IMG/VR virus record: IMGVR_UViG_3300020463_000155 | Coordinates: 1 to 22,105 of that record | Source of the DNA: a virus | Length of the DNA stretch: 22,105 bases | Strand: one strand, 5' to 3' | Notes under the pieces: model-generated | Databases searched by the model: none | What the model was told of the DNA's origin: nothing | The model's input: only the letters and a program-made list of their open reading frames with translations | Made by a program: the position numbers and the translations under genes | Shown here: positions 6,001-21,835 of the stretch, piece after piece | Layout of the letters: each line of letters opens with the position of its first letter | Numbering within the stretch: the stretch's first letter is position 1

Positions 6001-6300
6001 TATACTAAGACCAACCAATTTGTCATAATACAATTCTACAGGAACACCAAAAAATGTAGATTCTATTTTGACAGATGTATATTGATTATCATATTTGAAC
6101 ACACCAGGAATCACCATAGATCCCTCTTTGAAGATGTGTTTACCAAACTTCTCAACCTGATTCTGTAGAATAGATTGAAGTGTGGTTAGTTCTCTTGCCT
6201 GTATCGGACTGCCAGGTTTGAATAGAACTCGATTGAAGTTCTTTGATGAATCAAAATCATCAAAATATGGACTGACGTTTAGGTTGGTGTTCTGTGGCAT
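1..6300 (-). CDS. DUF4815-family virion structural protein, C-terminus cut by the window edge
   Basis: The frame opens at an ATG two bases after the gene 8 stop and stays open to base 1, giving at least 2100 residues with no stop. The N-terminus (MPQNTNLNVSPYFDDF, then FKPGSPIQARELTTLQSILQ) is the signature of the DUF4815 proteins of marine T4-like phages. A second conserved core at about residues 940-1180 includes DVIDLRPRVAPYSG (1001-1014) and YTMKQIGDLDTRIRTIEE, probably a short coiled coil. A proline-rich linker (1525-1535) and an asparagine-rich heptad stretch (1539-1557) precede a PLAQTFQVE domain (from 1564). The end holds a GGxGY module (about 1800-1860) and an IDNE-like module (about 1973-2043). 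It is likely a virion protein on the baseplate or its fibre connectors. It occupies the place of T4 genes 9-11, but its exact role is not known to me. No clear ribosome binding site precedes it. Confidence 0.88.
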   Translation of the reverse strand, partial: MPQNTNLNVSPYFDDFDSSKNFNRVLFKPGSPIQARELTTLQSILQNQVEKFGKHIFKEGSMVIPGVFKYDNQYTSVKIESTFFGVPVELYYDKLVGLSIKGKQSGITAKVVKVISSTESVTNNTTLFVKYEKSSDDYLSEQFLDGEALTTLADINYGVTTISNGSDFATAINSNATSIGSAFTITRGVFFARGVFVEVLPETLLLDQYSNLPSYRVGFNVREEIVTAVDDNSLYDNAAGFSNFTAPGADRLKISLSLIKKELTDFQDENFIELQRLQAGDTKKIIETTLYGELAKEFARRTYDESGDYYVTKFDLEAKECLNDRHSVFGTFFPENKTDEGNVPSKDLLNIRVGPGKAYVKGYETKTVGSNYIDVDKPRTTRLVESSAVPFQAGNRLRLNNVFGSARINLSAATSDYLDLRGARLGSTKSSAAGNSIGRARIYDYKLQNAGYTGDASVFEIFLFDIQTDTQLTINQAHTISLPAVIEGRNSGAKGFLRTAVSSGTTVNLNQVSGSFLKDEQIIINGELDGRVVTDVTDFDLSDVKSVRSTAAGRTFAADVLLENKKDFTGRSFTIAAASGSASVVTSGTPGWVSNFKIGDVVAYKRASQTDVTFNVVSAVTPVSNNITVVAAPNTISGICHKALPTAAVTVSDLKIVAGKLRDSTSGFLYSELANKNIESLDLTESLLQVRIENTGQNTNPSGQMDLPSLTGTEMVYAPFDEERYTISYSDGTVEDLTSDQVVITGGGKGVTISGLTASQSSVVVHSTQQKSKVKSKQKTLIREATKIITGSKRTNSGISTGVGDGLSPSGVFGKRVQDREISLDVPDVVNIVAIFESSGTGDATIPNMTLGSYNGPNGDNTDVIVGEIGVGKSSGAAAQVLSRNGTTKVDVIYKNASAFVENEEVFFEESGVRAILSNVNSGDPNIRNNFILDTGQREEYYDFGRIVRKQGFPEPQGRLTVFFDHYVINSEDSGDILTANSYVKENYDGAPAFGNIRNTDVIDLRPRVAPYSGTRSPFEFDSRDFSGGGQSPAVLVTDENITFDYNHYLGRIDRLFLNRDSSFTVQKGTPSVKPVEPEGISESFELAKITYQPYVYNAKREVKIDFRANKRYTMKQIGDLDTRIRTIEEVTALSLLENKTESLVITDPTTGLDRFKNGFVVDPFQNFLVADKSVPFLKYDINEGKLTPRKHSDSVDLLVGSASVVGTNGSPDLSVDPRYASDLGSPNIKMTGDLITLDYEEVLDRSQPFATRVENINPYMMRSWNGNLVLNPESDIFTERVFEVQDDGIGFSNDIIIEEESIPNMREQNIAFTATRLKPGTNHFNSFAGEDMLENNIRTIPKLLEVTPVQGAFQVGETVRGLAVSTQNASQGVDLRFRLAAPNHKDGPFNSPTITFLNNPYAANVGLSSAYSETTTVLNVDIQSLNQKSDGNFFGFALVGMRLVGETSGAEAEISQIRLISDDFGALLGSYYIPSERFENGTNTALLSSLKPQDNFPGLNFSRAAADHFSEGTLITNTTLERTEPAPPVIPEPVIFNITNVTNNITQIQNTVINNFVEEDDDPLAQTFQVEENPGIFMTSVDFFFATKSETIPLDVRVVNVVNGYPSRNIVKNGQVILNPDQVNVSSDASVPTTFTFPSPIYLPRGEYSFVIVTATSEYNQWICQVGEADISTADNTELGKVIVTKQPSLGSLFKGQTAGTWTPSQLEDMKYTARKAQFVTDSGTVRFYNPQLDTFDGRNNLPENPIETFAKRVTVGLGSAIGSGIIDLGTEIKQDANTGASGIVAAKLGHLGQTASTLTITNGGAGYEDATYSTVSFVNLTGSGSGAVGVVTVSSGVISGVTVIDENTGTGYQVGDTLTASLGTKGLGQNLLITVGVTTGVNSLLLTNSKGTFDTTNPIQYHDASLGYGVTVAGIIPSTVTTNTDQYDGLHFKVTHPNHGNYSDNNTVKINGITGDTVPTKTTVAYGVSDTSVVSVASSIGFSFFEGAQVTASNPGFALLGDEVIQYTSVGTNQLSGTITRGNDDTFARTYPVGTPVQKYELSGVSLRKINTQHSLINVSTTIEDKVTVDSYHAKITGSALFSKDKPGGGTRGKGTAN

Positions 6301-6302
6301 CG

Positions 6303-7841
6303 TTAGAATTCTAAGATGATTTTAATATCTTCTCGTTGGTTTGTTGCTCTAGTTACTTCAGGTCTTTGGTCAACGTAGATGATATTACCAGAGTATTTTT
6401 TGATCTCTGGGTTTGCCAATCCACTATTATATGTTTGTCCAAAGTAGTATGTCCTTGAGTTTACTGTTGTAGAAACTCCTGTGAAACCTGAATCAATTGA
6501 AAGGGTTTCAGTTCCTCCTGTAGTTTTGACAATAACGTTTGTGTTACCACCACTTGCAGGGCTTGCAGTGAATCTATTTAGTTTGTATCCGTAGGTGGGT
6601 TTGTCACCTGAGGTGTCATTAGTAGCAAGGGATCTGTCTTGCCAATACTGTAATGATTTTGTCACTGGATCATATCCAATAATTTGTCCCACAGCAGTAG
6701 AACCTAATCCAACAGTTTGTGTAATTTCACCATCAACCTGTACTGACATACTGGTTGTCGCTGCACCTGCTAGTTTCAATCCATACACACCTGAAGCAGA
6801 TGATGCAGTGAGTAGATTTGTACTACCAAACTGACTAGGATTTTCAATAATACCAATACGTGCAAATTGGTTACCTGTTGGGAAGTCAGGGTTAGTGACA
6901 TCACTGTTCTCAATACGTGAGTATACAAGAACTTTATTTGCACCTAATTCTCTGTATATGTCAGCACCGTGACCGCCTGGTGGTGGCACTATCACAGAGA
7001 AAGATGCTCCACTACCTGTTACAACATCATCTAAGTCTAAGGTAGCGAAAGAGTATCCACTCCCACCGTTTGTGACCTGAACAGCAGATGGTTTACCGTT
7101 GATGAATGTAACAGATGCCAGACCGTCTGATCCATCGCCTCTTATAGGCACAGCGTTCTTAGTACCATTGAACTGATAGGATGCAGTGATTGTATCCTCA
7201 ATTACAATAGTTTCTATCTTACCATCGACAGCAGAATTTCTTACATCTGCTACGTCAGAGTTAGTTTTCCAGTTTGCTGGTACAGGTATGTACTCAGCAC
7301 TATCAAATTTTATAATATCACTCGGTTTTATAGTATAAAGATATTTCCAAACATAACCATCACTTTCTAATCTAGGTTGTAGATCAGTGTGTACTGGTTC
7401 TTCTAGAGATATAACACCACCACCATTGTTTGCTGGAGCTGCTCCGTTGTATATACATTCATATACTCTAAAATCAGAGTTCATGACATAGAAGTTTGTT
7501 TTATACAAACTCGAAGAACTCGTCTGTGGACTCAATCGATTTATACTATAGTCGGGTCGATACATTTCATATATCGTACCTGTTGTCCATGAAATTTTTT
7601 TGATTACCCTCAAAACGTCGTTTGAAGTAATTTTTTTTGCAGATATTAGAGAATCATAGATGTTGTCATGTTCGTCAAAATTATCGATAGGTGCTGGAGT
7701 TGCTGTGTTCCAGTCTGCTGCTACAGAAGTAGCATTAGGTAGTCCTATGAAAACATAATAACTATTATCAGTCGTCGAAATTCCACTAACGAAATTCGTC
7801 GCATTTAGTACTCTTATCTGGTCGGTGATGACTGCTGGCAT
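6303..7841 (-). CDS. 8: Baseplate wedge protein gp8
   Basis: This 512-residue protein matches T4 gp8 in order and motifs. Near the N-terminus a VLNATNFVSG...YYVFIG stretch fits the gp8 start. DGYVWKYLYTIKPSD (161-175) followed by EYIPVP (183-188) corresponds to the T4 GDGYVWEYLFEIPPD...EYIVVP region. GNQFARIGIIENP (323-335) and the C-terminal SGNIIYVDQRPEVTRATNQ (484-502) match the T4 ending around IYMENRPPIIMAMDQ. In T4, gp8 is a dimeric wedge component that binds gp7 and gp10 outside the tail tube. This copy is about 180 residues longer than T4 gp8 (334). Much of the extra length is glycine-rich beta-type sequence containing a GGSGY module at about 245-300. It starts at ATG 35 bases after the preceding gene, downstream of its own late-type promoter box. 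T4 comparison is from memory. Confidence 0.93.
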   Translation of the reverse strand: MPAVITDQIRVLNATNFVSGISTTDNSYYVFIGLPNATSVAADWNTATPAPIDNFDEHDNIYDSLISAKKITSNDVLRVIKKISWTTGTIYEMYRPDYSINRLSPQTSSSSLYKTNFYVMNSDFRVYECIYNGAAPANNGGGVISLEEPVHTDLQPRLESDGYVWKYLYTIKPSDIIKFDSAEYIPVPANWKTNSDVADVRNSAVDGKIETIVIEDTITASYQFNGTKNAVPIRGDGSDGLASVTFINGKPSAVQVTNGGSGYSFATLDLDDVVTGSGASFSVIVPPPGGHGADIYRELGANKVLVYSRIENSDVTNPDFPTGNQFARIGIIENPSQFGSTNLLTASSASGVYGLKLAGAATTSMSVQVDGEITQTVGLGSTAVGQIIGYDPVTKSLQYWQDRSLATNDTSGDKPTYGYKLNRFTASPASGGNTNVIVKTTGGTETLSIDSGFTGVSTTVNSRTYYFGQTYNSGLANPEIKKYSGNIIYVDQRPEVTRATNQREDIKIILEF

Positions 7842-10800: not shown

Positions 10801-11008
10801 ATGCTTCGTAAGTTAGTTCTTCACCAGTAACATAAAAATGATTCTTTATAACAAAAGTATCATTACCTAACAATACATTACTCGATGATCCAGCATCAAA
10901 TTCGTGAGAAAACAACTGATCACCTTTATGTGTCAGTCTAAATGAACTCTGAAAGCTTTCACTTGCAGTGTTGAATTGTTTATTGATTGATCCTAGTTGA
11001 AATGTCAT
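7877..11008 (-). CDS. Virion structural protein of 1043 residues lying between genes 7 and 8
   Basis: No catalytic motif, signal peptide or membrane segment is visible. The protein is built of glycine-, threonine- and valine-rich beta-type modules. An 'H-x-F-x-x-G-E' module lies at about 51-128 with a weaker copy at 266-340. An IDNE-like module lies at 181-232. GGxGY segments occur near 487, 530 and 584. A motif resembling the LNGVxQxPG element of phage fibre repeats recurs at Q150, Q403, Q682 and Q960 (VIQSP, VFQKP, VLQKPG, VFQVS). The best copy, about 634-715, continues through DGGTQIKFTEAPPEGA to FYRGT. The start ATG overlaps the stop of the gp7-like gene as TAATG, so co-production with the wedge proteins is likely. 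I know proteins like this only as uncharacterised virion proteins of marine T4-like phages. A baseplate-peripheral or fibre-like role is inference. Confidence 0.8.
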   Translation of the reverse strand: MTFQLGSINKQFNTASESFQSSFRLTHKGDQLFSHEFDAGSSSNVLLGNDTFVIKNHFYVTGEELTYEAYAGTPVGIQHGVAGVGAATTLPSSVFVIKLDENKFKLAATRDLAVGNSPIGLTTVGVGTTQSFTSQKLDTKCIVTIDNVIQSPLLENTGVETTLLSTMFNREARFADTRPFSQYDIIKMGNEIMRIQVIGFGTMTDNVLVDRAWMGTAEEAHLINDPVKLVRGDYNIRKNKIHFADTPFGGTRQKIGISSEAINVSASRFTALTEIFSTGTQVKVRSLTPPAPLVGNQDYFIIKNGNNDFSFSRTKADALTGVGITLTSAGIGTISLLVADIVDGSEFQGRSFIRSDYRGNFLLDDMAESFTGVGKTFTMTSSGSNISGINTDFGVILLNNVFQKPEIDYNYVESSGITSIRFTGNDIPGQTETYSTSDVNANRLPRKGIISGLGNTQGFGYQQLQTGFGTAVVSDTGTISVAMGFTGGGYRSDGTVFRVRVIGGNPTTPAAGTFSVQDGRIKTITMNPAGVGYTFTKVPLLEFDSPYAYDDIKLISEGVGVGASISFNIGIGDSISAPVITNTGYGYTAGEVLTVAGIPTNFSAGTNFTPATFTITKTSDDEFSGWVLGKFQILDDFSHEFNSSKTQFTITNNGEPISIEKIPGSPIDLDHILLIFINDVLQKPGKAYEFDGGTQIKFTEAPPEGATLQLLFYRGTDADIINAEAVESILKGDIVTIQSPTSDRSILKQDPRIIREVISRDTLQTTTYKGQGITAAKTPLRPLTWRKQDDDKIVDGVKVSKARGIYAGRIFPATRLIAGVSTTSTVMYGQSGVVGFTRTEDPDTLEFGVKIIDTEKDNSGFGSTTFTYPHKLFENASMEGDQGVIVGVGATTKGLQFEFSIPDNSILRDNAFGGFTETGIGTGDFFLVSRSNIGDGVTAMSTDGSATVGLTTICVDGVFQVSNIERVGAGSTIRVFTEIASGHGVNVTGLSSGAGNFYGAYSYAKFTTGAVGMAFTVNPMNGLTGLSTAPEIQRTTKLSLRNT
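9989..10213 (-). repeat. Divergent copy of shared 'H-x-F-x-x-G-E' module in the 1043-residue protein
   Basis: Residues about 266-340 read FTALTEIFSTGTQVKVR, then DYFIIKNGNNDFSFSRTK and ADALTGVGITL. This keeps the GTxV, YFIIK, NxFxF and DAL-G spacing of the module seen in the gp7-like protein, although the leading histidine is missing. Confidence 0.55.
10313..10468 (-). repeat. Shared IDNE-type module in the 1043-residue protein
   Basis: Residues 181-232 contain IIKMGNEIMRIQVIG, then NVLVDRAWMGTAEEAHLIND and PVKLVRG. The arrangement (G/D)NEIM, variable linker, V-x-R, GT..AH, PV matches copies in the gp7-like protein and, less closely, the DUF4815 protein. Confidence 0.6.
10625..10858 (-). repeat. 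Shared 'H-x-F-x-x-G-E' module in the 1043-residue protein
   Basis: Residues about 51-128 contain NHFYVTGEELTYEAYAGTPV, then SVFVIKLDENKFKLAATR and a trailing glycine-rich VGVGTT. The closest relative in this window is the copy at about residues 793-856 of the gp7-like protein. Confidence 0.65.
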
Positions 11009-14000
11009 TAGTACGTTACTGTTGTGTTATTAGCATCAGAATCTGGTTTATCAATTTTCAATTCATGTGTTCTTACTGTGTATGCTTTGTTCGCTAATGG
11101 TAAGAACTTCAATTGTGTATTGATTGATGTTATATCTATGGAAGTATTCGCCATATCTCTCTTCATCACATCATCAGTGTATAAGTTGTTGTATGTGTTG
11201 TATGTGGCATTACCTGCATATGAGTTTGATCCAACATAGAATGTTGAGAACTCGTCATCTGTTGTATTGTGTATCTCAACTTGGAATTTACATGTTGTGT
11301 AGTTTGCATATGCCTTCTGTGAGATTATCTGTTCACTAGGTGAACCGTTAGCAACAATTTGTATAAATGAACTGTCAAGCATAGTATCACCAATATGATA
11401 TTCATCAACTATTCCTGAATTACCATGAGTCTGTGCAACACCTATTGCTCTAACAAGAGATGATACTGTCACTGCCATTCCAACAGGAGGTGTGTGTTGA
11501 AGTTTTAATACATTACTGACATTATTGATCGAGAATATTCCGATGTCTGTGTCAGCATCCATCTTACCAGTGTTAGTGAATACTACATTGTTAGCACCAT
11601 CTGCTAACCATGTAAATTCATCAATCTCCTTCTCTCCATTAGGTCCTCTTGCAGATACAAGTATGCTTCCAGATTTGTACATAGAAGTATCTACCTCATC
11701 AACATCCTGTAGAGTATTACTTACTGCAAGAGTTTTAGTAATACCCTTATACTCCATCAATCCAAATGCAGTGGATGCAACACCCACACCATTTGTAATA
11801 ATCTCCTTATGGAATGTGATATCATAAACCAATGCTGAGTTGTTAGGCACATACATGACACTCGCTAGAGGTCCGTTTGTTTCAGTTATAAACTCGCCTA
11901 AATCCTCTGCATCTGCTAATTCTGAGTAGGTGTTGAGGTATGCATCTGTTCCGTCATGGAAAACAACAAACTCTGAATACTGAGTAGCGTTGAAAGATAT
12001 ACCTGATGATACGTCAAGCACAACTTGAGCATAATATTTGATAGCACTGACACCATCACCTGCAGGTCCTCCCGTCAACATGTCAAATGTATCAAGTTCA
12101 ACTGACCTAATAAGGTTTGGATCGGAATAGAACTGAGGACTGATGTCATCTAGTGATAGAACTCTGTTTGTCTTACAGATAAGACCATCACCAAACTTAC
12201 CAGATAGAAATTGTATTTCATCACTTATATTCTCATCAATATTAGTGTTCTCACTTACCAAGTCAAAGTTTTGTGTATCAAGAAGTGATGCCTGTGCATC
12301 AATCAATACAACTCCACCAGCACCTGATGATACACCAACTGGATTATATAAGTCTGTACCTATTCCCACTGGTTGTGAGTTTATAAGCAGATCTGAGTGC
12401 TTCTTGAAACCTGCTATGTGAGCAAGAGAGTCAACTGGTTCGCTCCAACTACTGATACCTACAAAACTCTTGAGTGAGTATGCAAAACTCTGATAGTAGT
12501 CATTATCTTGAAGTCTCTGATAGAAATCATTGAGTTTACCTGTATCTCTTTCCCATCCAAATATTTTCTCAGATGATGTATCGAGAGTGAAGTATCCACC
12601 ATAAGATTGTGATGATTCTATTGTTCCACCTGCTTTAGAGAACTTACCAGTAATAACATCACCTGTATTGAATCCTACAAGTGAGTCAACTCTTAGTATA
12701 TTTCTCGTCTTTCCTTTACCATTTACAACATTTGCTTCAAATCCTGAAGATGAAACGACTGGTTCACCATTCAAGAATTTACTCTCTATAAGATTTACTT
12801 TGAACTGAGCAAGATCTTGATTTCTAACAACAACACCATATTTTTGTGTATCATGTATGCCAGGATCTCTGTCAACTTCATAAGTTAGAGTTGCTTGGTT
12901 TACATTACCAAATGCTGTGTTCACACCCGTCAATGTAAATGTTTGATACTGGAAGTCAGAAGAGTTATATCCATTACCTGTAGCAACACCTGTATTCTCT
13001 ACAAATACCTTATCACCAACTTCAAATGGTAGTGGTGTGGCTGTGTTGAAACCTGTGATAGGAGTTTGTAGTCTGAGTGTTACGTTAGGTTCAGAATAAG
13101 TACAACTTATAATACCAACACCGTTAGTATTGTTGACTGGGAATAATTCAACATCGCCTGAGCTGAGATTACCACCAGCAAATATAACCTTTACATTTGA
13201 TACAGAACCACCTATAAGTTCTGCCTCAAATTCAGCATTTGGATTTATTGTATCTGTTTTACTATTGTAAACAACAAAACTTGGTGGTGTAAGATAGTTT
13301 TTACCTGTAGATGTAATTGCTACACTATCCACAGCAAAGTTGTCCTTCAAGAACAATACCTGTGGCACAGATGCTTGTGGTTGTAGTGTCAAATCTGATG
13401 GATAATCATATCCAGTATCAATCATCGCCACTTCATCTATCCTACCTATGTCTGAACCAAACGCCTTCAAGTTAGCAGAAGATCCTGTAGTAGATGCCAC
13501 TGATACCTGAGGTATATCCTTATAACTTGATCCACCACCTTGTAATAATACTCTTGCTACTCCACCTCTTACATTTGTTGTGTTAGTAATATAAGAAATT
13601 TGTGATTCGCTTGAGTATCCAACTTTTTCAGGGACAGTGAATAGATTCCAACTAAAGGTGTTTGTATCTTTAGATAATATTGTGTGTCTACCTGTAAACT
13701 TACTTGCATTTACAAAAATCTTAGAGTGATCAACAATCTCTTTATTGATTTCTATTACTTTCGTATTCTGTAAAGGAAGGAACTTATAGTATAATACCTC
13801 TGGCACACGATCTGTAAAATGTATAGAAGTTCTAGATCCTGAATTGCCAGGTATGCCTGTATTCTCAACTTCAATAGCAGATTTACCTGTGCCTACAAAA
13901 GGTTTCTTGAATTCTTGATCTAAGAAGAATACTAATTTTGTATTATCAAGTGATGTATCAGATGTATCAATGTGAAGTGTATCACCAGTGATCAATGATA

Positions 14001-17000
14001 TAGGTGGGTTTGTAGAAGAACCAATACTTACATATCTGTTGCCAGGATCGTATGTTGCTGTGACAGAACTGGTTGCAGAAGAAACAATAGTAAGGTCAAG
14101 TGTGTCACCTCTCTCAAATGTATGATTATTAGAGGTTGCTGTAACGTTGATAATCCTTAGTGTTCCTGTAACAACGTCTTTCTTAGTTCTAAAGAAATGT
14201 GTGTTTCCAATACCTACATTAGCACTGAACATCACTCTATTAGTGTCAAATCCTATGTGTGTCTGTGAGGTTACAATACCAATAAGATTGTTGTCTATGA
14301 CTTGAACAAATACCTCTTCAGGGAGTGGTGATGTAAACGTTGTATTGACACGCTTCATCGCATCAGTTTGATACTTGACACGAGTACCACCATTAGGACT
14401 GTATTCTAATTTTTCTCCAGTTTTGAATCTATGATTAGGGAGGTAGATAGATCTTGTTGGTATGAATATGTCTTTTGTCTCATTACCAAAGAATGAAACT
14501 AACTGATTACCACCTCGTCCATTTACTGCAACTGTGGTTCCTATACCTACACCAAATGTGCTACCTGTGCCTACTACTGATTCAGCATTGAAGTAGTATG
14601 ATCTGTCTTCTTCAGTTGAAAGATTGACTGGTTTGTTGAGTTGATATGAAAATTGATTTTCTAATCTTGTGACTGTAGAACCAAATGTATGTGCAACACC
14701 TGAAGTTCCATTCTGTGCTCTTAGCATCTCAAGTCTATTGTTCTTTACATCAAAGTTTACAATCTTGAGTTGCTCGTTATCAATTTGTACTATGTCATTG
14801 ATTTTGAACTTGTAACCTGTCAATACGTCAGGCACCCAGTCTGTTATGAGAACACTTGTTGTAAGTCCAGTGACATTGACAGATGCCATAGAGACCCCTA
14901 GACCTGTACTAATCTGTTTTAGGTTGATTTGCACGTTACGTGCAGCAAGATTACTGTGAGTGTCAGTAGAGATGCCTATGATCTCAACAAATGAGTTGTC
15001 ATCAATTGTTATTGGACTTGTGTGTATTCCTATAACACCACTAGCATTTGCAACTAAAACAATATCTTCAATCTCTGTAATTGTTGATGTAATTGTGGTG
15101 ATGCCAGGTCCTTCAACAAAACTTACTTTTCCTATAGCACCAAATCCTTCTGTGCCTTGATTATCAAATACTAACTTGTCACCTACATTGTAATCTTTAC
15201 CTGCAGTGACAATATTGACGCTATCAATTATACCACTCTTAGTCTGAGTAATTTTTGAGTTGATATTTGTATTTCTATTTGCATTTGATACAAACTCATA
15301 CTCCTTGATATTGTATGGTTGTGTGTTTCTTATCAATCCTAATGCAACTAAATTTGCATCTTGATTTGAATTATACGCTAAGTTGAATTTTTGTAATTTA
15401 GAATTGTAAGTATCTCCAATAATGTATGGGAATACTGGTGTTCTAACTCTGTTGAATGGAGATGTTGGGTTGATGATTACTGTATCTTCTACAGTTGTAT
15501 AGTAAGCATATACACCATTAGGATATTCAGGTGTTGCAGCAAATCTTCCATTATGCTCATCAAGATCACCTGTGCCTTCAACATATGTAAAGTCTTCAAC
15601 AAAGAATCCAGCAGGGTAGACGCTGATATCAGGTCCGTCAACTCTTGAACTTGACAACTTACGATAACTCGACTCAATATACTTCTTCTTACCATCCACA
15701 ACAGCATAAGGACCGTAGATAGGATGTCCATCATATGCAAAACCAAGGATAGGTGAGTGATCCTGTCCTACATCACCTAAAAAGTTTCTAAGATTACGTG
15801 GCACATAATAATTTACATATGGATTACCTAATTCACTATCTCTTGGTGTCTCTAAGAATCCATCATCCTCTTTTACATCGCCAAACTTTGCATATCTCTC
15901 AACTTGGTTGAGTGTCCACTTCTTGATTTCACTAGAAAATATAGCACCCTCACCTGGCGTTCTAGCAGTAGTAGTAGTTTTCTCTTGTGTATATCCAGCA
16001 CCCTTTTCTATCATATCAATACTGGTTATAGTACCATTTGATATATTTGCTTTTGCCTTACAACCTATACCATCACCTAAAATTACAATATCAGGATTAC
16101 TAAAGAAATTTTCTCCTCCATCTTTTACAATTATCTGATCGATACGACCATTTACTATAAACGGTTGTAGAAATGCATTCTTACCTATGGTAGGTTCAAC
16201 TACTGGTTTGTAGTTATCGTTGATAACAGTAGATCCAAAATTACTACCCTTTCCTTCAACATGAACAGATGCAATTTTTCCTCTTATTATAGGTGTAGCA
16301 GTGGTGATATCTGCAAAACTACCTTCATCTCTTTTTCTACCAAGTATAGAAATTGATATTGGAGGATCTTGGAATATATGTGTGCCTAAACCACCATCAT
16401 TCAAACGTTTGAATAATGTCAATTCTTTTGTATCTGATAGTCTGAAATTATCATCATCTAATTTTTGAACAAAATATTCTGTGTTATTTGATAATCCACC
16501 TATGGCAGACTCAGTAGATGAATATTTGATTATTTCTGAGTTATCAAATCCATGAGATTCTATATTGATGGTATCTGTGAATGTATTGATACCAGTGCTT
16601 GTACGAACTTCTCTGTTCTTGAAGAATCCAGCATCTTCAACTAATATCTTATCAACTTTCAGTCTTCTATCTACAGTTCTAAGTCTCTGTATACCACCAC
16701 CATTTGTAGAAATTGGAATTGTACCTATACCAGCAAGAGCATCTTCTTTATTATCTGCTAGTGAAATTAGAGTGTCAGGATTTCTTTTTACAACGAAGTA
16801 TGTTGCAGTATCAACTAATGTACCTGGTGTTACACCAATACCTATGGGTGTGCTACCATTAGTTTCGTAAATTACTTGTTCACCTTCAATCAAGTTATGA
16901 GGAAATGAGAATAAGAAATCATTACCTGCAGTTCTAACAACTCCTCCTGTAGAAGTTGCATCAAACTCTACAACTTGGTTGACAAACTTCATCTTTGCCT

Positions 17001-19290
17001 TGACTATGGATGTAGTATTGTTACCACCAATAATTTTTACATCAGGTATCTCTTCAAAATCAGAACCCTCATTAGTAATCAATATCTCTTGCAGTGTTCC
17101 TTCCACCTGTGCTATCACAGATGCACCTATACCATTGTGACCATCTTGACTAACAGTCAATCTAGGAGGACTGACAATATCATAGTCTGAACCTGTATTC
17201 AATACTTCTACATTCTCTAGAGGTCCATAGTAAACAATGTCAGATGACTTATATGAGTATGCTTCTACACCATTAGCAAATAAACCAACACCACCCTGTA
17301 TAGTTTTATCTTTTACAGCACCATATTCAGGTTTATCAAACTTTCTTAGTAATTTCTGTGCACCAATATCACTTCCAAATAGATTAGATGGTGTAAGAGA
17401 GTGAGATGTTGTGTTTACAAGATCCGTTCCATCAAACGCTGTAAGGAATTGACCTCTTCTTACGTTCTCTCCTGTATATGCTAGTTTTACAGTATTACTA
17501 TCAACTCTTTTAATATAATATGATTCCCCTTCATTCAAATTAGAAAGTGTCACACCTGAAGAGGAGTATACTACTAGATCGCCATCATGAAACTTATGGT
17601 CAGGGACATTTATCTCTACTTGTGTTGTTGTAACACCAACATTAGTGAATCCTCTGATTCTTTTTTGAGGATCAATAATCCAGTGTGGTAAACTATTTGA
17701 TGCAACATATGCTGAGATACCATCAGTATATGTGTTCTGCACATCAGCTGTATTTTGACCTTGTAATTTTATTTTTCTTCTTATATTATATTTTTTGGTT
17801 TCATCTAGAGTGGGTACACTGATTGAGATAAAATCGTCTTGAACAAAAGTTATACTACCATTCAATACAGAACTAGGATCATCTTGATCAATAACCTCAA
17901 TCAGATCACCAACATATAGAGAGAAGTCTGCTGCTGCTAGTACAATGTCATAACTATTGGCACTTTTGAGTGTAAATGTTGCTATAGCATATGTTGATAC
18001 TGTATTGTATAACCAAGTGGTGTACGATAGATCTGTTTCTATTCTACCAAGTTGACTTATATTTACATTTGAATCCTCTTGTTGGTTTATTGCACCACCC
18101 ACAAATGAATTGAGTACACCAAGGACATTGAAGGTTACAGGTGATGATAATCTACCATCTTCGTATGATGTGGCGATAATACCTGACCTTACTGTAGATC
18201 CAATACCACATGGGGCTGTCAATGTTGATATACCAGTAAATTGTGTAAGTGTTTTACCACCATAAGTCAGTTCTTTATCCTCGAACTGAAAAGATCCTGT
18301 TGCACCAAAACCAACTGTAGAGTCAACATCTAATACAGTAGATCCACTGGTCGCTGACTTAGTAATAAATGTTTTTCCAACCTGTTGGAACTTACCTATA
18401 ACTGTGCCTTTAGATAAAGCGATCTTATAGAAAATTTTACCACCCACAACTGCTTTCTCAACATTTGATATAGATCCACTTGTTTGTAGAGGAGTGGTCT
18501 CTTGTATCAAACTTTCTCCAAGAATTTTGAATGGATCACCAGATAATAACTCACATAGTAAAACATCATTGACAATATAGTCAGCATCCGATGGACTCAT
18601 GATGTATTTTGAAGGTTGAATCATTTCAACACTTTCGCCATACAATACTTTGAATAATATCTTGAATGCTTCTTCTGTACCTTTAGATTTGTAGAAATCT
18701 TTTGCTTGTCTTATAAAATTACTCTGATCAACCTGATCAAATAATTTTCTCTCAGAAAAACCAGGTAATACTTGTTTCTTTAGTTTTTTTCTAAACTCAG
18801 CAAGAAATACATTACTTAGGTTTGTTACTCTTGCATCAACACCATGAGTTCCTACTCCAGTCCTAGTAAATGTTAGGAATTCTGGATCATTTGTTCTCTT
18901 ATTATTTTCAATACCACTGAAACCTCTTACACACCCTGTAAATGATGTGGTGCCTATACCTGTATATGTTATTATCTCATTGTCAATTTTGAGTAGACCG
19001 TATGAGTTAGGCCATCCCTTTGTAGACTTGACATAAATTGTATCCTGATAACCTGCTACGAACTGTGTTACTGAGGTAAATCCTATCAGATTTTCATTAT
19101 TGAGAAAGTCAAGACTCTTGTACTCAACAAGGTTATCAGCGATATCAACTGATGCTCCTTGATATTCTTGAGAAATATAATATTGTTTTAGAAATTCACC
19201 GAAACGAGGATTTTCAGCATCAATTACCTCTGGTATTTGACTCTGAACAACCTCATTAATTTTTACTTTGGTCAATGATGTTTGTATCAT
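11008..19290 (-). CDS. 7: Giant gp7-like baseplate wedge protein with YHYH domain (2760 residues)
   Basis: It sits directly after gene 6, where T4 has gene 7. Residues 27-55 (NPRFGEFLKQYY ... DNLVEY) and especially 197-222 (DFYKSKGTEEAFKILFKVLY, then GESVEM) resemble the T4 gp7 stretch around DFYSTKGIEASYKFLFKVLY. T4 gp7 (1032 residues) initiates wedge assembly and joins gp6, gp8 and gp10. In T4 this stretch is near the C-terminus; here it is at the N-terminus. An IDNE module at 81-130 interrupts it. About 2500 residues of beta-type modules follow: four 'H-x-F-x-x-G' copies (560-612, 793-856, 908-970, 1613-1705), GGxGY segments (691-770, 1006-1100, 1351-1375, 1911-1990), a YHYH domain (about 1171-1266), and two similar domains near the C-terminus (about 2418-2498 and 2660-2748). 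Both ends overlap neighbours as TAATG. The gene is intact; the gp7 assignment is strong for the N-terminal part only. Confidence 0.85.
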   Translation of the reverse strand: MIQTSLTKVKINEVVQSQIPEVIDAENPRFGEFLKQYYISQEYQGASVDIADNLVEYKSLDFLNNENLIGFTSVTQFVAGYQDTIYVKSTKGWPNSYGLLKIDNEIITYTGIGTTSFTGCVRGFSGIENNKRTNDPEFLTFTRTGVGTHGVDARVTNLSNVFLAEFRKKLKKQVLPGFSERKLFDQVDQSNFIRQAKDFYKSKGTEEAFKILFKVLYGESVEMIQPSKYIMSPSDADYIVNDVLLCELLSGDPFKILGESLIQETTPLQTSGSISNVEKAVVGGKIFYKIALSKGTVIGKFQQVGKTFITKSATSGSTVLDVDSTVGFGATGSFQFEDKELTYGGKTLTQFTGISTLTAPCGIGSTVRSGIIATSYEDGRLSSPVTFNVLGVLNSFVGGAINQQEDSNVNISQLGRIETDLSYTTWLYNTVSTYAIATFTLKSANSYDIVLAAADFSLYVGDLIEVIDQDDPSSVLNGSITFVQDDFISISVPTLDETKKYNIRRKIKLQGQNTADVQNTYTDGISAYVASNSLPHWIIDPQKRIRGFTNVGVTTTQVEINVPDHKFHDGDLVVYSSSGVTLSNLNEGESYYIKRVDSNTVKLAYTGENVRRGQFLTAFDGTDLVNTTSHSLTPSNLFGSDIGAQKLLRKFDKPEYGAVKDKTIQGGVGLFANGVEAYSYKSSDIVYYGPLENVEVLNTGSDYDIVSPPRLTVSQDGHNGIGASVIAQVEGTLQEILITNEGSDFEEIPDVKIIGGNNTTSIVKAKMKFVNQVVEFDATSTGGVVRTAGNDFLFSFPHNLIEGEQVIYETNGSTPIGIGVTPGTLVDTATYFVVKRNPDTLISLADNKEDALAGIGTIPISTNGGGIQRLRTVDRRLKVDKILVEDAGFFKNREVRTSTGINTFTDTINIESHGFDNSEIIKYSSTESAIGGLSNNTEYFVQKLDDDNFRLSDTKELTLFKRLNDGGLGTHIFQDPPISISILGRKRDEGSFADITTATPIIRGKIASVHVEGKGSNFGSTVINDNYKPVVEPTIGKNAFLQPFIVNGRIDQIIVKDGGENFFSNPDIVILGDGIGCKAKANISNGTITSIDMIEKGAGYTQEKTTTTARTPGEGAIFSSEIKKWTLNQVERYAKFGDVKEDDGFLETPRDSELGNPYVNYYVPRNLRNFLGDVGQDHSPILGFAYDGHPIYGPYAVVDGKKKYIESSYRKLSSSRVDGPDISVYPAGFFVEDFTYVEGTGDLDEHNGRFAATPEYPNGVYAYYTTVEDTVIINPTSPFNRVRTPVFPYIIGDTYNSKLQKFNLAYNSNQDANLVALGLIRNTQPYNIKEYEFVSNANRNTNINSKITQTKSGIIDSVNIVTAGKDYNVGDKLVFDNQGTEGFGAIGKVSFVEGPGITTITSTITEIEDIVLVANASGVIGIHTSPITIDDNSFVEIIGISTDTHSNLAARNVQINLKQISTGLGVSMASVNVTGLTTSVLITDWVPDVLTGYKFKINDIVQIDNEQLKIVNFDVKNNRLEMLRAQNGTSGVAHTFGSTVTRLENQFSYQLNKPVNLSTEEDRSYYFNAESVVGTGSTFGVGIGTTVAVNGRGGNQLVSFFGNETKDIFIPTRSIYLPNHRFKTGEKLEYSPNGGTRVKYQTDAMKRVNTTFTSPLPEEVFVQVIDNNLIGIVTSQTHIGFDTNRVMFSANVGIGNTHFFRTKKDVVTGTLRIINVTATSNNHTFERGDTLDLTIVSSATSSVTATYDPGNRYVSIGSSTNPPISLITGDTLHIDTSDTSLDNTKLVFFLDQEFKKPFVGTGKSAIEVENTGIPGNSGSRTSIHFTDRVPEVLYYKFLPLQNTKVIEINKEIVDHSKIFVNASKFTGRHTILSKDTNTFSWNLFTVPEKVGYSSESQISYITNTTNVRGGVARVLLQGGGSSYKDIPQVSVASTTGSSANLKAFGSDIGRIDEVAMIDTGYDYPSDLTLQPQASVPQVLFLKDNFAVDSVAITSTGKNYLTPPSFVVYNSKTDTINPNAEFEAELIGGSVSNVKVIFAGGNLSSGDVELFPVNNTNGVGIISCTYSEPNVTLRLQTPITGFNTATPLPFEVGDKVFVENTGVATGNGYNSSDFQYQTFTLTGVNTAFGNVNQATLTYEVDRDPGIHDTQKYGVVVRNQDLAQFKVNLIESKFLNGEPVVSSSGFEANVVNGKGKTRNILRVDSLVGFNTGDVITGKFSKAGGTIESSQSYGGYFTLDTSSEKIFGWERDTGKLNDFYQRLQDNDYYQSFAYSLKSFVGISSWSEPVDSLAHIAGFKKHSDLLINSQPVGIGTDLYNPVGVSSGAGGVVLIDAQASLLDTQNFDLVSENTNIDENISDEIQFLSGKFGDGLICKTNRVLSLDDISPQFYSDPNLIRSVELDTFDMLTGGPAGDGVSAIKYYAQVVLDVSSGISFNATQYSEFVVFHDGTDAYLNTYSELADAEDLGEFITETNGPLASVMYVPNNSALVYDITFHKEIITNGVGVASTAFGLMEYKGITKTLAVSNTLQDVDEVDTSMYKSGSILVSARGPNGEKEIDEFTWLADGANNVVFTNTGKMDADTDIGIFSINNVSNVLKLQHTPPVGMAVTVSSLVRAIGVAQTHGNSGIVDEYHIGDTMLDSSFIQIVANGSPSEQIISQKAYANYTTCKFQVEIHNTTDDEFSTFYVGSNSYAGNATYNTYNNLYTDDVMKRDMANTSIDITSINTQLKFLPLANKAYTVRTHELKIDKPDSDANNTTVTY
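11047..11313 (-). repeat. C-terminal domain of the gp7-like protein, second copy of a duplicated pair
   Basis: Residues about 2660-2748 run from YTTCKFQVEIHNTTDDEF through STFYVGSNS, YNTYNNLY and LKFLPLANKAYTVRTHELKI. Segment order and spacing match the copy about 240 residues upstream (SEFVVFHDG, LNTYSELADAEDLG, MYVPNNSALVYDITFHKEII). The pattern suggests a beta-sandwich domain. The duplication is read by eye and was not scored. Confidence 0.55.
11797..12039 (-). repeat. C-terminal domain of the gp7-like protein, first copy of a duplicated pair
   Basis: Residues about 2418-2498 include KYYAQVVLDVSSGISF, then SEFVVFHDGTDAYLNTYSEL and VPNNSALVYDITFHKEII. Alternating hydrophobic residues indicate beta structure. 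The partner copy lies at about residues 2660-2748. Confidence 0.55.
14176..14454 (-). repeat. Shared 'H-x-F-x-x-G-E' module, fourth copy in the gp7-like protein
   Basis: Residues about 1613-1705 begin IYLPNHRFKTGEKLEYSPNG, the cleanest form of the module opening. The second half (EEVFVQVIDNNLIGIVTSQT) is preserved after a longer linker. Confidence 0.6.
14656..14865 (-). repeat. Shared IDNE-type module, second copy in the gp7-like protein
   Basis: Residues about 1476-1545 contain FKINDIVQIDNEQLKIVN, then NRLEMLRAQNGTSGVAHTFG and STVTRLEN. This is the fullest version in the window: IDNE, variable linker, L-x-R, GT..AH..G..V. Confidence 0.65.
15490..15780 (-). other. YHYH domain inside the gp7-like protein
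   Basis: Residues about 1171-1266 contain HSPILGFAYDGHPIYGPY (1178-1195), SSYR (1207-1210), a glycine/proline turn with AGFFVEDFTY, GDLDEHNGRF and TPEYPNGVYAYYTT. This is the YHYH domain pattern known from secreted and surface proteins of bacteria, whose biochemical role I do not know. All the segments that define the family appear present in order, so the domain looks intact. Its presence in a gp7-position baseplate protein is seen in the sequence; any function there is inference. Confidence 0.8.
16381..17613 (-). repeat. Three spaced copies of the 'H-x-F-x-x-G' module in the gp7-like protein
   Basis: Copies lie at residues about 560-612 (VPDHKFHDGDLVVYSSSG, YYIKRVDSNTVKLAYT), 793-856 (FPHNLIEGEQVIYETNGSTP, YFVVKRNPDTLISLADNKED) and 908-970 (IESHGFDNSEIIKYSSTES, EYFVQKLDDDNFRLSDTKE). 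The shared layout is H-x-F/L, two or three residues, G/S-E/D-x-V/I-x-Y, a glycine-rich loop, then Y-F/I-V-x-K-x-x-D-x-x-x-x-x-L-A. GGxGY-type segments separate the copies. Confidence 0.7.
18901..19050 (-). repeat. Shared IDNE-type module inserted in the gp7-homologous N-terminus
   Basis: Residues about 81-130 contain DTIYVKSTKGWPNSYGLLKI, then DNEIITYTGIGTTSFTGCVR and GFSG. It falls between the two stretches that resemble T4 gp7 and so looks like an insertion into that core. Confidence 0.6.
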
Positions 19291-21431
19291 TAGTATCCGT
19301 ATCCACTACTGCTTGATGAGGATGATGAAGTTGATGTCGATGGAGATGACGAACTATCTATTGTACTTCTAGAACCAGTTATTCCAAGACTTTGTTCTCT
19401 TGTGTCATATATGATGTCATGGGGTGTTGTTGTATGGAATGCTCCTACCATTTTTTCTCCAGTGCTAGGATGTGTGTGGAACGGACCGTAGTATGGTTGA
19501 CCATTTACATAACCAACCAAATTAGATCCAGAAGAGTTTGCTGTGATAATTGAACCTCTTACTTTCGCTCCATTACTGTAACTTGATTGTGGATCGTATC
19601 TTGTACCAGATGTGTTTGCACCAGATGATATTGGATCTTCTTTCATAGTAAAGTTACTGTTAGAAACATCGAACTGTAAGTACAATTCTTTTCTTGCTAG
19701 TACATCATTAGACTGTGGTATCGCCTGTATCTCAATTACATTATCAGATAAGACAGTAGATGTGATATTCACTGTGTCAATTATGACCTCACCCTTCTTG
19801 TAGTCCACAGATCCAAAGGATGATGATAATATCTTCACTGATGAGTCAGAATCAATTTGGAATAGGAATAGTTTTCCTTTATCTCCAGATGTGTACTGAT
19901 CAGAGAAGTAAACTGTTCCTGATACACCAGACACTGTAAATCCTGTTGACTTTACGTTATAACTATCTTGATTTCTATGGAAGGTATTGTCAAAACATAT
20001 TTCATATTGACTGAATACGTTTAGCACTGCAATCAAGTTTCTTCTTATCCTGATTGTAGTAATATTAGATGTGATGGAGTCACTTACTCTATCAATCAAT
20101 GATAATACTTTACTGTATTTGAATCTACCACCAAACTTGTTCAATTCAGTGCCACTTGCAAATAGGTTCATTGAAGATATTACATCTGATCTTAGATTAT
20201 TGACATCACCCACGAAGTTTGCATTGAAGTAAACATAACTATCAATTTCTACATATAGGAACTTTAAGTCAATCAGTTCAGGCACAATACCTGCTACTGA
20301 ATAGTTTTTCAATGATGTAAGTATTTGTTTCTTAGTGAAATTAGATAAGAATGATCCGTTCTTTGGTTTAGCAGCGATGAATACTCTACCATACTTGGGA
20401 GGTGTGAGTTCCTCTCCACCAAAAGCACTTATTGACTCGATGTTAGGATATACTGTAGGGATTATTGCTTCATAATCACTTGCTGTTACTGCTCTGTGCT
20501 GTGAAGAGAATAATCTAGGAGCATAGTATCTTACACTTCGTAGATCTTCAATATCATCACCATTCTGTGATGCAAACTGTGGTCTAAAGATTACTTCTGC
20601 AGTTGTTTCTTCAATTCCGTCTTGATCTTGTATTATACCAGTAAAACCTAATCGATTTACACCATTACCATTCTTACCCTCTGTCTTGATGTATGATATA
20701 TCAATTACATTACCACTTCCCAACTTCTTACCGAAGATACCATCACCAAATAGTATCTCATACTTCTCATCTGTAGTCTCTTGTATAAGATATATGTTTG
20801 AAGTTGAGGTTATACCGATTATATTATCTACAAGTTTGTATTCTTCGGATGATGTGCTTGCATTATTCTCTTTCACCTTCACTCTGATAGTGGAGGTGTC
20901 AATACCATTATTGGGTAGCACGTATCTTTGATTGGGAAGAGAATCATCAACCACAAATCTAGATTCTAAGAACTGACCTTGAAATACCTCAAGAACACCA
21001 TTTGCCACACCATTCGATGATGTACCAGTTACCTTTTCTGGTACAGAGAAAAGATAATTTGTATTTGAAACAGAACCACTAGCAACAAGACCTGGTTGAA
21101 ATATAATTGAAGTCGTTGTAGATGATATGCCACTGATGTTGTAAGATACTGTGGTTCTCGCTGCTCTTCTTGATCTTGGAACATATCCTATATTTCTTGC
21201 AAGTGATACTACATTTTCTCTAAGTGTTGCACTGTCAATGAAAGTTTCATTGACGATTGCATTTGTATTATATGCTGTGGTATATGAGTTATATGCTAAC
21301 AGATTTACAATGACAGAAAGGTTAGACCCCTCAAAATCCATATCACTGAAGTTTGAGTTTTGTCTCAGATAATCTTTTATCGAGGATTTTATGTCCTCAA
21401 AATTTAGATTTGTAAATTGTTGCAGTGCCAT
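19290..21431 (-). CDS. 6: Baseplate wedge protein gp6
   Basis: A 713-residue protein slightly longer than T4 gp6 (660). The N-terminus shows the gp6 pattern: NFEDIKSSIKDYLRQN (10-25), then DFEGSNLSVIVNLLAYNSY (32-50), ETFIDSATLRENVVSLA (62-78) and IGYVPRSRRA (81-90). FGDGIFGKKLGSGN (228-241) and AVTASDYEAIIPTVYP (314-329) are typical of the baseplate J/gp6 family. In T4, gp6 dimers form the inner ring of the baseplate and link neighbouring wedges. The last ~70 residues differ: a histidine-rich stretch (647-671) then a serine-rich tail (693-709) ending GYGY. The ATG overlaps the gene 25 stop (TAATG) and has an AAGG a few bases upstream, the only convincing ribosome binding site in this window. 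Confidence 0.95.
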   Translation of the reverse strand: MALQQFTNLNFEDIKSSIKDYLRQNSNFSDMDFEGSNLSVIVNLLAYNSYTTAYNTNAIVNETFIDSATLRENVVSLARNIGYVPRSRRAARTTVSYNISGISSTTTSIIFQPGLVASGSVSNTNYLFSVPEKVTGTSSNGVANGVLEVFQGQFLESRFVVDDSLPNQRYVLPNNGIDTSTIRVKVKENNASTSSEEYKLVDNIIGITSTSNIYLIQETTDEKYEILFGDGIFGKKLGSGNVIDISYIKTEGKNGNGVNRLGFTGIIQDQDGIEETTAEVIFRPQFASQNGDDIEDLRSVRYYAPRLFSSQHRAVTASDYEAIIPTVYPNIESISAFGGEELTPPKYGRVFIAAKPKNGSFLSNFTKKQILTSLKNYSVAGIVPELIDLKFLYVEIDSYVYFNANFVGDVNNLRSDVISSMNLFASGTELNKFGGRFKYSKVLSLIDRVSDSITSNITTIRIRRNLIAVLNVFSQYEICFDNTFHRNQDSYNVKSTGFTVSGVSGTVYFSDQYTSGDKGKLFLFQIDSDSSVKILSSSFGSVDYKKGEVIIDTVNITSTVLSDNVIEIQAIPQSNDVLARKELYLQFDVSNSNFTMKEDPISSGANTSGTRYDPQSSYSNGAKVRGSIITANSSGSNLVGYVNGQPYYGPFHTHPSTGEKMVGAFHTTTPHDIIYDTREQSLGITGSRSTIDSSSSPSTSTSSSSSSSSGYGY
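19419..19493 (-). other. Histidine-rich motif in the gp6 C-terminal extension
   Basis: Residues 647-671 read YYGPFHTHPSTGEKMVG followed by AFHTTTPH, giving four histidines (652, 654, 666, 671) in 20 residues, two of them as HxH. HxH motifs bind iron in some phage spike tips, so metal binding is possible, but this is inference. Confidence 0.6.
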
Positions 21432-21835
21432 TATAACCTTGTTGGTTCTAGAATAAAGTTGACAGATTGTGTAGGTGCACTTAGACCGACGATATCATAA
21501 AATATTGTTATTTCCATTGAGTTTTTATCAGGTGTAGAAATAAATTTTACATCTGTAACTCTTGCTCTCGGTTCAAAGTTTTTTAAGGTGCTTACAATTT
21601 CAGATTTGATTGGATCAGTATAAGCAGAGTTTGCTAACTCAAATAAAGATCCTGATATATTTGTGCCAAGTAAGTCATTGAAAAATACTTCACCAAATTG
21701 AATACGAACTAAATTTTGCACAGAGCGTTTGATGGCATCCTCATTTTTTAGTGTAAGGATGTCTTTTGTTACTGGATGAGTTTTGAAAGACAAGGAAACG
21801 TCTTTGAATCCTTGCGAAAACTTCTGTGCTGGCAC
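21431..21835 (-). CDS. 25: Baseplate wedge protein gp25
   Basis: A 134-residue protein, the usual size for the gp25/GpW family (T4 gp25 is 132). DAIKRSVQNLVRIQFGEVFF (33-52), LLGTNISGSLFELAN (55-69) and the hallmark FEPRARV (87-93) match family positions, including the conserved EPR motif. In T4, gp25 sits in the wedge core with gp6 and gp53, close to the first sheath ring, and helps trigger sheath polymerisation. The start is GTG (codon for MPAQKF...); the next in-frame ATG is at residue 107, too late. No clear ribosome binding site is seen. A late promoter box ends about 20 bases upstream and a terminator lies beyond it, making this the first gene of the block. Its TAA overlaps the gene 6 ATG. 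Confidence 0.95.
   Translation of the reverse strand: MPAQKFSQGFKDVSLSFKTHPVTKDILTLKNEDAIKRSVQNLVRIQFGEVFFNDLLGTNISGSLFELANSAYTDPIKSEIVSTLKNFEPRARVTDVKFISTPDKNSMEITIFYDIVGLSAPTQSVNFILEPTRL

Follow-up and report, generated by a model that had tools for sequence, protein, structure and literature searches.

Which protein takes the place of the T4 baseplate wedge protein gp7 in marine T4-like phages, and how are its parts arranged? This question is raised by a virus record of 22,105 bases (IMG/VR record IMGVR_UViG_3300020463_000155; the whole stretch is called the window here), which holds on its minus strand the baseplate operon of a T4-like marine phage. In T4 and its relatives one gp7 and two gp6 chains form a core bundle and a trifurcation unit, with gp25 located above, according to passages in PMC6300606 and PMC10457771. 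According to a passage in PMC7029224, pelagi- and cyanomyophages have no T4 gp7, and VrlC appears to stand in for it. The protein considered in this work, P0001, comprises 2760 amino acids (aa) and is encoded at 11008..19290 (minus strand). An initial annotation, made from the sequence alone, had recognised a T4 gp7 core at its N-terminus and proposed that the large N-terminal arm of T4 gp7 had been replaced by a C-terminal arm of repeats.

As judged from profile comparisons, P0001 carries helix 1, helix 2 and a domain V-like piece at its N-terminus and a closing motif near its other end. We consider it probable that P0001 is the gp7 wedge protein of these marine phages, with a core interrupted by an arm of approximately 1,940 residues, and that a bare core was elaborated independently. 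The gp7 identification itself is largely known by annotation. New are the interrupted core, the likely descent from a bare core, the finding that two families carry front extensions, and the correction of the statement that gp7 is absent. No description of an interrupted gp7 core was found in the searched literature, which covered few subscription papers.

The N-terminal core is homologous to T4 gp7

Residues 10-304 of P0001 (window 18379-19263, minus strand) are homologous to T4 gp7 641-839. This region comprises a helical segment (core piece 1, residues 10-62, 19105..19263), corresponding to the T4 gp7 helical domain PF21428 (643-689); an inserted small beta-barrel (residues 63-165, 18796..19104); helix 2 with its DFYxSKG motif (core piece 2, residues 166-230, 18601..18795; T4 about 705-761); and a domain V-like beta domain (core piece 3, residues 231-304, 18379..18600; T4 domain V, PF21427, 766-861), all on the minus strand. 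The barrel was delimited by a gap in the profile alignment with phiM7 and by barrel-like structural matches, and is absent from T4 gp7 and the phiM7-like gp7s. The initial annotation had placed the core in residues 1-260, its coordinates 18511-19233 corresponding to residues 20-260. The homology was confirmed but not the limits, as the match continues to residue 304 and residues 63-165 are the barrel insert.

Residues 197-216 (DFYKSKGTEEAFKILFKVLY) are identical to T4 gp7 733-752 (DFYSTKGIEASYKFLFKVLY) at 13 of 20 positions, and the T4 segment given in the initial annotation was correct. Using phmmer with residues 1-260 against the PDB sequences, the best two matches were T4-like gp7s (E 9e-4 and 1.4e-3; third match E 0.2), and with a profile of 80 sequences gp7 gave the sole two matches at E<=1 (E 5e-7 and 1.6e-5). 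By hhalign, residues 191-292 of the window-family profile were aligned with 726-813 of a six-sequence Straboviridae gp7 profile at E 3.6e-10, against E 0.079 for the reversed T4 profile and E 0.036 for the best of 20 column shuffles. T4 gp5, 6, 8, 9, 10, 11, 12 and 53 all gave E>=0.16. Two alignments were used, A1 retaining 79 of 146 relatives after a 92% identity filter and A2 retaining 32 of 34 listed sequences.

Residues 27-55, within helix 1, had also been likened to T4 gp7. A direct profile search of this helix against the PDB sequences was not significant. Helix 1 was reached because the phiM7-like gp7s, which lack the barrel insert, link the window to T4: window 10-304 matched phiM7 10-198 (E 4e-22), and phiM7-like 7-214 matched T4 641-839 (E 2.6e-12, 193 columns). 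P0001 has helix 2 with the DFYxxKG motif (T4 726-760), a domain V-like piece after helix 2 and, through this bridge and the structure comparison, the helical segment (T4 643-689). The domain V-like piece is missing from bare-core members of the gp7 class and is therefore not essential for membership. When the full-length HTVC008M family was compared with T4 by hhalign, the core was not the top match (core E 0.034; elsewhere E 0.0043); the window-family and phiM7-like profiles recovered it where the HTVC008M profile did not.

An AlphaFold2 model of residues 1-330 was of medium quality (predicted local distance difference test, pLDDT, 69; predicted template modelling score, pTM, 0.42). A Foldseek comparison, one of the checks that had been suggested, ranked gp7 chains 1-3 (E 3.4e-5, 3.5e-4 and 0.036), and the matches at E<=0.001 were two gp7 chains and no others. 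VIA-align superposed model residues 2..304 on 5iv5 gp7 636..823 (174 residues, Z 6.1, root mean square deviation (rmsd) 15.5, rank 6) and residues 3..303 on a Klebsiella phage gp7 638..823 (169 residues, Z 5.8, rmsd 15.4, rank 7). A Z below 8 is weak by itself, and weight was put on the agreement of these ranges with the sequence alignment. Most VIA-align rows cover only about 68-161 (F1-ATPase barrels and phage proteins), and the five rows outranking gp7 are read as matches of the predicted structure to a common small barrel.

A closing motif interrupts the view of a simple C-terminal arm

A further core piece, the C-motif, was located at residues 2245-2305 (core piece 4, 12376..12558, minus strand) as the counterpart of T4 gp7 about 862-895; as a gp7-class feature it is a proposal of this analysis. 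A C-motif hidden Markov model (HMM) built from 76 gp7s was searched in 886 open reading frames (ORFs) and proteins. The training gp7s came first, followed among untrained sequences by phiW-14 (E 2e-6) and then by all six Straboviridae gp7s, which matched at one and the same place (T4 865-890, E 0.002-0.025) and were not in the HMM; the next other ORF had E 0.17. Six gp7s obtained later and outside the HMM (LIMEstone1, Cygsa01, C48C1, phiM9, N34 and S-RIM2) also contain the motif at E<=3e-7. All 85 complete proteins compared have it (76 of them contributed to the HMM); truncated ORFs such as L107 were excluded from this comparison. In hhalign comparisons with T4 862-898, two query profiles scored 34.2 and 42.4. 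The best of 200 column shuffles for each scored 23.1 and 29.4, so that 0 of 200 reached the observed score. With a wider query profile the score was 35.5 at a probability of only 26%, 50 shuffles reaching at most 24.8 and reversed T4 15.8.

Among 13 segments of P0001 compared with 25 complete relatives, mean identity was highest in the C-motif (0.76) and second highest in helix 1 (0.75). Local alignments of the blastp type paired window 1324-1394, 1911-2005 and 2251-2306 with HTVC008M 389-458, 495-587 and 759-814, in the same order. For a model of residues 1-406 of the short gp7 L161, Foldseek ranked gp7 chains 1-3 (E 3.5e-6 to 5.6e-5, 389-391 columns), and VIA-align superposed its residues 83..381 on 5hx2 gp7 707..897 (160 residues, Z 8.7, rmsd 17.7).

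From these comparisons we conclude that the C-motif is probably a piece of the gp7 core, and that the marine core would therefore be interrupted by an internal arm at residues 305-2244. With the motif at 2245-2305 matching T4 862-895, the greater part of the arm would be inserted within the core, and beyond the motif lie only the last 455 residues of P0001, plus perhaps P0004. This changes the picture given initially. A plain C-terminal replacement of the N-terminal arm is not supported, and the "2500 unrelated residues" said to follow the core include another gp7-homologous piece, 2245-2305.

The interval between core and motif varies widely: none in phiW-14, 74-141 residues in L161, L163, L164, L166 and Marzo, 304-442 in Melnitz and the HTVC008M-like gp7s, 442-879 in the phiM7-like gp7s, 1872-1919 in the window clade and 2109 in P-SSM2. 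For the T4-like proteins the count began where the profile match stops, so that it mostly includes domain V, and the "core end" of 2954 for S-PM2 is an artefact from a second barrel copy.

An unlikely alternative, close to the initial annotation, is that the gp7 core is followed by a simple C-terminal arm from residue 305, with 2245-2305 being an unrelated conserved arm domain. It would fit the shortness of the direct match between motif and T4, and the fact that after domain V the window family otherwise matches T4 no better than E 0.2. Against it stand the single T4 position hit in 6/6 Straboviridae, ahead of the other entries among the 886 and with 0/200 shuffles as good, the bare-core gp7s (phiW-14, LIMEstone1, Cygsa01 and C48C1), in which the motif comes right after helix 2, and the phiM7-like gp7s, in 14/16 of which it almost ends the protein (16-46 residues follow).

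Several observations weigh against an interrupted core. Compared directly with T4, the C-motif aligns over only 31-40 columns, at a moderate hhalign probability of 26-79%. In the reverse search with the T4 segment the best match in the window was at 585-606 (E 6.7) and not at the C-motif, although the same search reaches the C-motif position in several gp7s (L161 and L163, E 1e-4). Of the structural rows for L161 only the untrimmed 5hx2 one extends to the motif, the trimmed 5iv5 and 9f4a rows ending at 851 and 853. The motif has low confidence in the AlphaFold model of L161 1-406, so the packing of helix 2 against it stays inferred, and the gp7 superpositions in general show a large rmsd (15-24 A).

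Position of the core in other phages and direction of change

The initial annotation had correctly noted that the core lies at the N-terminus here and in the last part of T4 gp7 (about 641-895 of 1032). When the window-family core HMM was searched in the 886 ORFs and proteins, all matches at E<=10 were gp7s. The core is near the N-terminus in HTVC008M (1016 aa), Melnitz-3 (896), Sinorhizobium phage phiM7 (1006), Stenotrophomonas phage Marzo (503), Delftia phage phiW-14 (246), S-PM2 (3048), P-SSM2 (5195), the window (2760), LIMEstone1 (284), Cygsa01 (291), C48C1 (316) and S-RIM2, that is, the core comes first in 12 of the 14 non-Straboviridae gp7s examined. Four of these, phiW-14, LIMEstone1 (in which an Ackermannviridae gp7 was found later), Cygsa01 and C48C1, consist of the bare core alone, at 246-316 aa. 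Among 152 loci in viral contigs the core could be placed in 151, and its first matched residue was never more than 35 residues away from where the open frame starts; these loci were picked by similarity to N-terminal core queries, and the figure describes relatives and not all phages. No match to the core HMM was found in the regions from Klebsiella phage Menlow, Staphylococcus phage 812, Bacillus phage Goe17 and Vibrio phage D508; in these phages the gp7 counterpart may be encoded outside the regions searched or be too divergent to be matched.

In contrast, helix 2 begins at residue 723-836 in all six Straboviridae gp7s (T4, PspYZU05, RB49, leE, V09 and AS-yj), after a front extension of about 640 residues. 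A T4 gp7 1-640 profile, searched in 1,313 ORFs from 15 sources (fetched stretches rather than whole genomes, two of them parts of HTVC008M), matched the six Straboviridae gp7s alone at E<0.1. The T4 front arm was not detected in the window proteins, as had been supposed initially, and P0001 does not belong to the Straboviridae-type gp7s (phrog_964). In the same scan T4 gp11 and gp12 were found in T4 and PspYZU05 only, the other Straboviridae stretches ending upstream of those genes; gp6 and gp8 were more widespread, and gp53 was found in two further stretches.

The bare cores, together with XM1 gp17 and A-1(L) gp32 from simpler contractile phages, in which published structures place the helical core at the N-terminus, make it probable that front arms are additions to gp7. 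This would reverse the direction of change first proposed. Trees of gp6 (33 and 39 rows) united the Straboviridae with 100/100 support and kept the two Pootjesviridae as a separate group; LIMEstone1, Cygsa01 and phiW-14 clustered together, and the window clustered with P-SSM2 and S-PM2. Three points run counter to this scheme. The Pootjesviridae phages phiM9 (903 aa) and RHph_N34 (867 aa) have approximately 262 residues ahead of the core; in Melnitz-3 a gp10-like protein occurs although the T4 arm does not, so that arm and gp10 are not strictly coupled; and the gp6 trees are unrooted, with several rows placed weakly.

It is conceivable, if improbable, that the front-armed gp7 is ancestral and that marine phages lost the front arm and gained the internal one. 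The unrooted trees are compatible with this, and so is the Pootjesviridae extension, for which the T4 1-640 profile weakly matched N34 (E 0.02 in a later set of six gp7s). However, this extension as a whole compares with the T4 arm at E 0.3 only, and a front arm is missing from XM1 gp17, from A-1(L) gp32 and from the four bare cores (LIMEstone1, Cygsa01, C48C1 and phiW-14).

Some individual gp7 loci deserve mention. The gp7s of phiM9 (L195:4167-6878) and RHph_N34 (L196:4167-6770) carry an extension without clear relation to the T4 front arm. In Melnitz-3 the gp10-like protein (L089:14715-15599, phmmer E 2.4e-9) is encoded between gp7 and gp8. S-RIM2 gp7 (L193:2989-16497, cut) has approximately 500 extra residues between its helix 1 part (4-106) and its helix 2 part (612-842), with the C-motif at 3445-3503; the annotated coding sequence has 6378 codons and is labelled hypothetical protein.

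VrlC very probably does not replace gp7

The published statement that gp7 is absent and that VrlC substitutes for it is contradicted, because the gp7 core is present (E 4e-21; 48.9 bits against Pfam Baseplate_wedge, cut-off 27) in the HTVC008M protein AGE60389, which is encoded between gp6 and gp8 under the label "putative structural protein", VrlC being a separate gene downstream of gp8. That VrlC has taken over the role of a missing gp7, as the passage in PMC7029224 suggests, is hence very improbable: the direct similarity to T4 is weak and the HTVC008M record names VrlC but not gp7, yet eight VrlC-type proteins (six incomplete) gave no significant match to the core HMM (best E 0.011) or the C-motif HMM (best E 0.1). 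P0001 has no DUF4815 match, unlike P0006, the VrlC-type protein of the window; the DUF4815 protein resembles P0001 in being large and in the same operon, but it is a separate gene in which the gp7 core was not detected.

GenBank names this family gp7 in several cyanophages (P-SSM2 and S-SM2 among them) and in the LIMEstone1 bare core, and gp7 is mentioned in a passage of PMC3037559 (Sullivan et al. 2010) about genes of the non-cyanophage core. The phiW-14 protein gp64 (L086:7590-8330, 246 aa), directly after gp6, is a bare gp7 core with C-motif that is labelled "head closure Hc2". The same label is found on C48C1 gp7 and on phrog_3465, a family matched by HTVC008M gp7 over its full length; on these gp7s it is probably a misannotation.

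The internal arm

The arm (residues 305-2244, 12559..18378, minus strand) lies between domain V and the C-motif. It contains a YHYH domain (PF14240, residues 1174-1273, 15472..15771, E 5.7e-24) and the two halves of a beta unit (residues 1354-1398, 15097..15231, iE 2e-6; residues 1901-1940, 13471..13590, iE 0.004), all on the minus strand, the region of the second half also being matched by blastp between window 1911-2005 and HTVC008M 495-587 (E 6e-7). The short arm of the L161/L166/Marzo-type gp7s consists of one beta unit (L161 217-316). Since its halves recur separated in the window, the giant arm would seem to have arisen when three large pieces were inserted into a short ancestral loop. 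No internal repeat was detected at E<0.01 when P0001 was compared with itself, which does not bear out the description as an arm of repeats. Counts of GxGY-type units by regular expression were above shuffles in several proteins, a measure too crude to define repeats.

Arm segments were conserved at 0.47-0.57 except for the YHYH part (0.65), compared with 0.55-0.76 in the core. The good conservation of the YHYH part, which was found in 16 of the 16 arms scanned, argues for a structural or general binding role over a hypervariable receptor-binding tip. A lectin-type (laminin-G/concanavalin) domain was found in only 1 of these arms, and the function of the arm stays inferred. The arm in question (L062:3934-14928) has the laminin-G/concanavalin-like lectin domain (E 1.4e-13) ahead of its YHYH domain. 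The beta unit in the L161 model (238-315) is similar in structure to gp18 domain I of the T4 sheath (Z 9.2, rmsd 2.3, 76 aligned, 28% identity), and Pfam Gp18_dom_I also matches the gp7s of Marzo and L153, below cut-off. After the core follows an extension of 455 residues (2306-2760, 11011..12375, minus strand), in which Pfam gave no match at E<=0.1.

The baseplate operon of the window

The minus-strand operon has the order gp25-gp6-gp7 (P0001)-P0004-gp8-VrlC, the position of P0001 being that expected for gp7, after gp6 and before gp8, with P0004 in between. The same order, without the P0004 step, was found in HTVC008M and P-SSM2. The genes are gp25, wedge or sheath initiator (21431..21835; PF04965, phrog_261); gp6, the expected core partner (19290..21431; PF21379, PF21387, phrog_219); gp7; P0004 (7877..11008, 1043 aa); gp8 (6303..7841; PF09215, phrog_438); and P0006, the VrlC-type baseplate protein (1..6300; DUF4815, PF16075), a gene distinct from gp7 that extends past the window edge. 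P0001 matches phrog_2885, "baseplate wedge subunit" (E=0, 1856 bits, best stretch 4-1744), and scores 19.6 bits against Pfam PF23786 Baseplate_wedge, under the curated cut-off of 27 bits, which is passed by the gp7s of HTVC008M, Melnitz, phiM7, Marzo and phiW-14. By tblastn it matches 472 phage records, with names starting Synechococcus, Cyanophage, Prochlorococcus, Marine, Methylophilales or Pelagibacter. NCBIfam gave no family at E<=0.01 for any of five proteins, and single-sequence phmmer of full P0001 and P0004 against the PDB sequences gave no match at E<=0.1.

PSSM2_111 of P-SSM2, "gp7 baseplate wedge initiator" (5195 aa), and other Kyanoviridae gp7s share with P0001 the family, the order of core and C-motif and the operon. 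P-SSM2 gp7 is one long ORF matching both the gp7 and the P0004 parts, whereas the window clade has the tail part as the separate gene P0004, which matches the C-terminal part of phrog_2885 and of P-SSM2 gp7. The stop of gp7 and the start of P0004 overlap as TAATG at window 11008. A P0004 homologue follows gp7 in all 25 loci having a complete gp7 ORF, its ATG lying 0-18 nucleotides past the gp7 stop in 24 of them (offset 0 in 15); the junction is a conserved gene split or fusion. The window gp6 (713 aa) and L030 gp6 (707 aa) are longer than the other complete gp6s compared (592-676 aa), and the window gp6 C-terminus (19293-19633) has a His-rich YYGPFHTHPSTGEKMVGAFHTT stretch followed by a serine-rich tail.

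A model for marine gp7

T4 gp7 (Straboviridae; phrog_964; PDB 5IV5 and 5HX2) and P0001 share helix 1, the DFYxxKG helix 2, domain V and the C-motif in this order, as well as a gene position after gp6 with gp8 downstream. T4 gp7 differs by its 640-residue front arm and by having almost nothing between domain V and the motif, and P0001 by the barrel between the helices, the internal arm of approximately 1,940 residues, the 455-residue extension and the lack of a front arm. HTVC008M AGE60389 (1016 aa) has the same core and C-motif between gp6 and gp8, but its arm is about 400 residues long and Pfam finds no YHYH domain in it. LIMEstone1 ORF162 (Dickeya phage, 284 aa) and phiW-14 gp64 (246 aa) have helix 1, helix 2 and the C-motif directly after gp6; they have no arm, and the C-motif directly follows helix 2. 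XM1 gp17, A-1(L) gp32 and TssG, likened to P0001 by description, lie beside two gp6-like chains in the published structures; there the N-terminal helices of XM1 gp17 and A-1(L) gp32 are in the core bundle and loops or the C-terminus hold spikes or fibres, and all three are small and have no giant arm.

By analogy with T4, both ends of P0001 would pack together with two gp6 chains to form the core bundle and the trifurcation unit under gp25. The arm would leave the wedge outward and, with VrlC and gp8, build the baseplate periphery or a second layer, which may hold or present receptor-binding parts. By analogy with the wedge proteins of other contractile systems it is most likely a scaffold reaching outward from the trifurcation unit for receptor-binding parts, together with VrlC, and would do the job that T4 gives to the gp7 front arm and to gp10, gp11 and gp12. 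In the proposed history the bare core, as still present in Ackermannviridae and in Delftia phage phiW-14, would have been elaborated independently, by front extensions in Straboviridae and Pootjesviridae and by a growing internal arm in marine and related phages.

More tentatively, the gp7 loop from helix 2 or domain V to the closing motif might serve the wedges of contractile phages in general as a platform for insertions. The giant marine arm, fixed by its two ends in the trifurcation unit, would then correspond to the loop with which simple phages hold their spikes and to the T4 gp10-gp11-gp12 pins, relaying host contact directly into the gp6-gp7-gp25 core. Published work gives background for the arm as a scaffold. 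The outer domains of T4 gp7 touch gp10, gp9 and gp8 and move on baseplate opening (PMC3004832), XM1 gp17 binds tail spikes through its loop 80-106 and its C-terminus, the C-terminal loop of A-1(L) gp32 helps hold the long tail fibre (PMC10966104), and the gp7-like part was called a hotspot for re-engineering by the authors on AlgoCIS (PMC8894135).

The gp7-class wedge proteins couple the host-sensing periphery of the contractile tail to the sheath trigger, and the best-known model among them, T4, proves to be an atypical one. The marine T4-like phages occur in very large numbers, and published work holds that their baseplate has no gp7. Once gp7 is placed in these phages, with its arm seemingly rooted in the core by both ends, this account is corrected and a concrete model for cryo-EM is at hand. 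It also indicates where large peripheral arms can go in without breaking the wedge.

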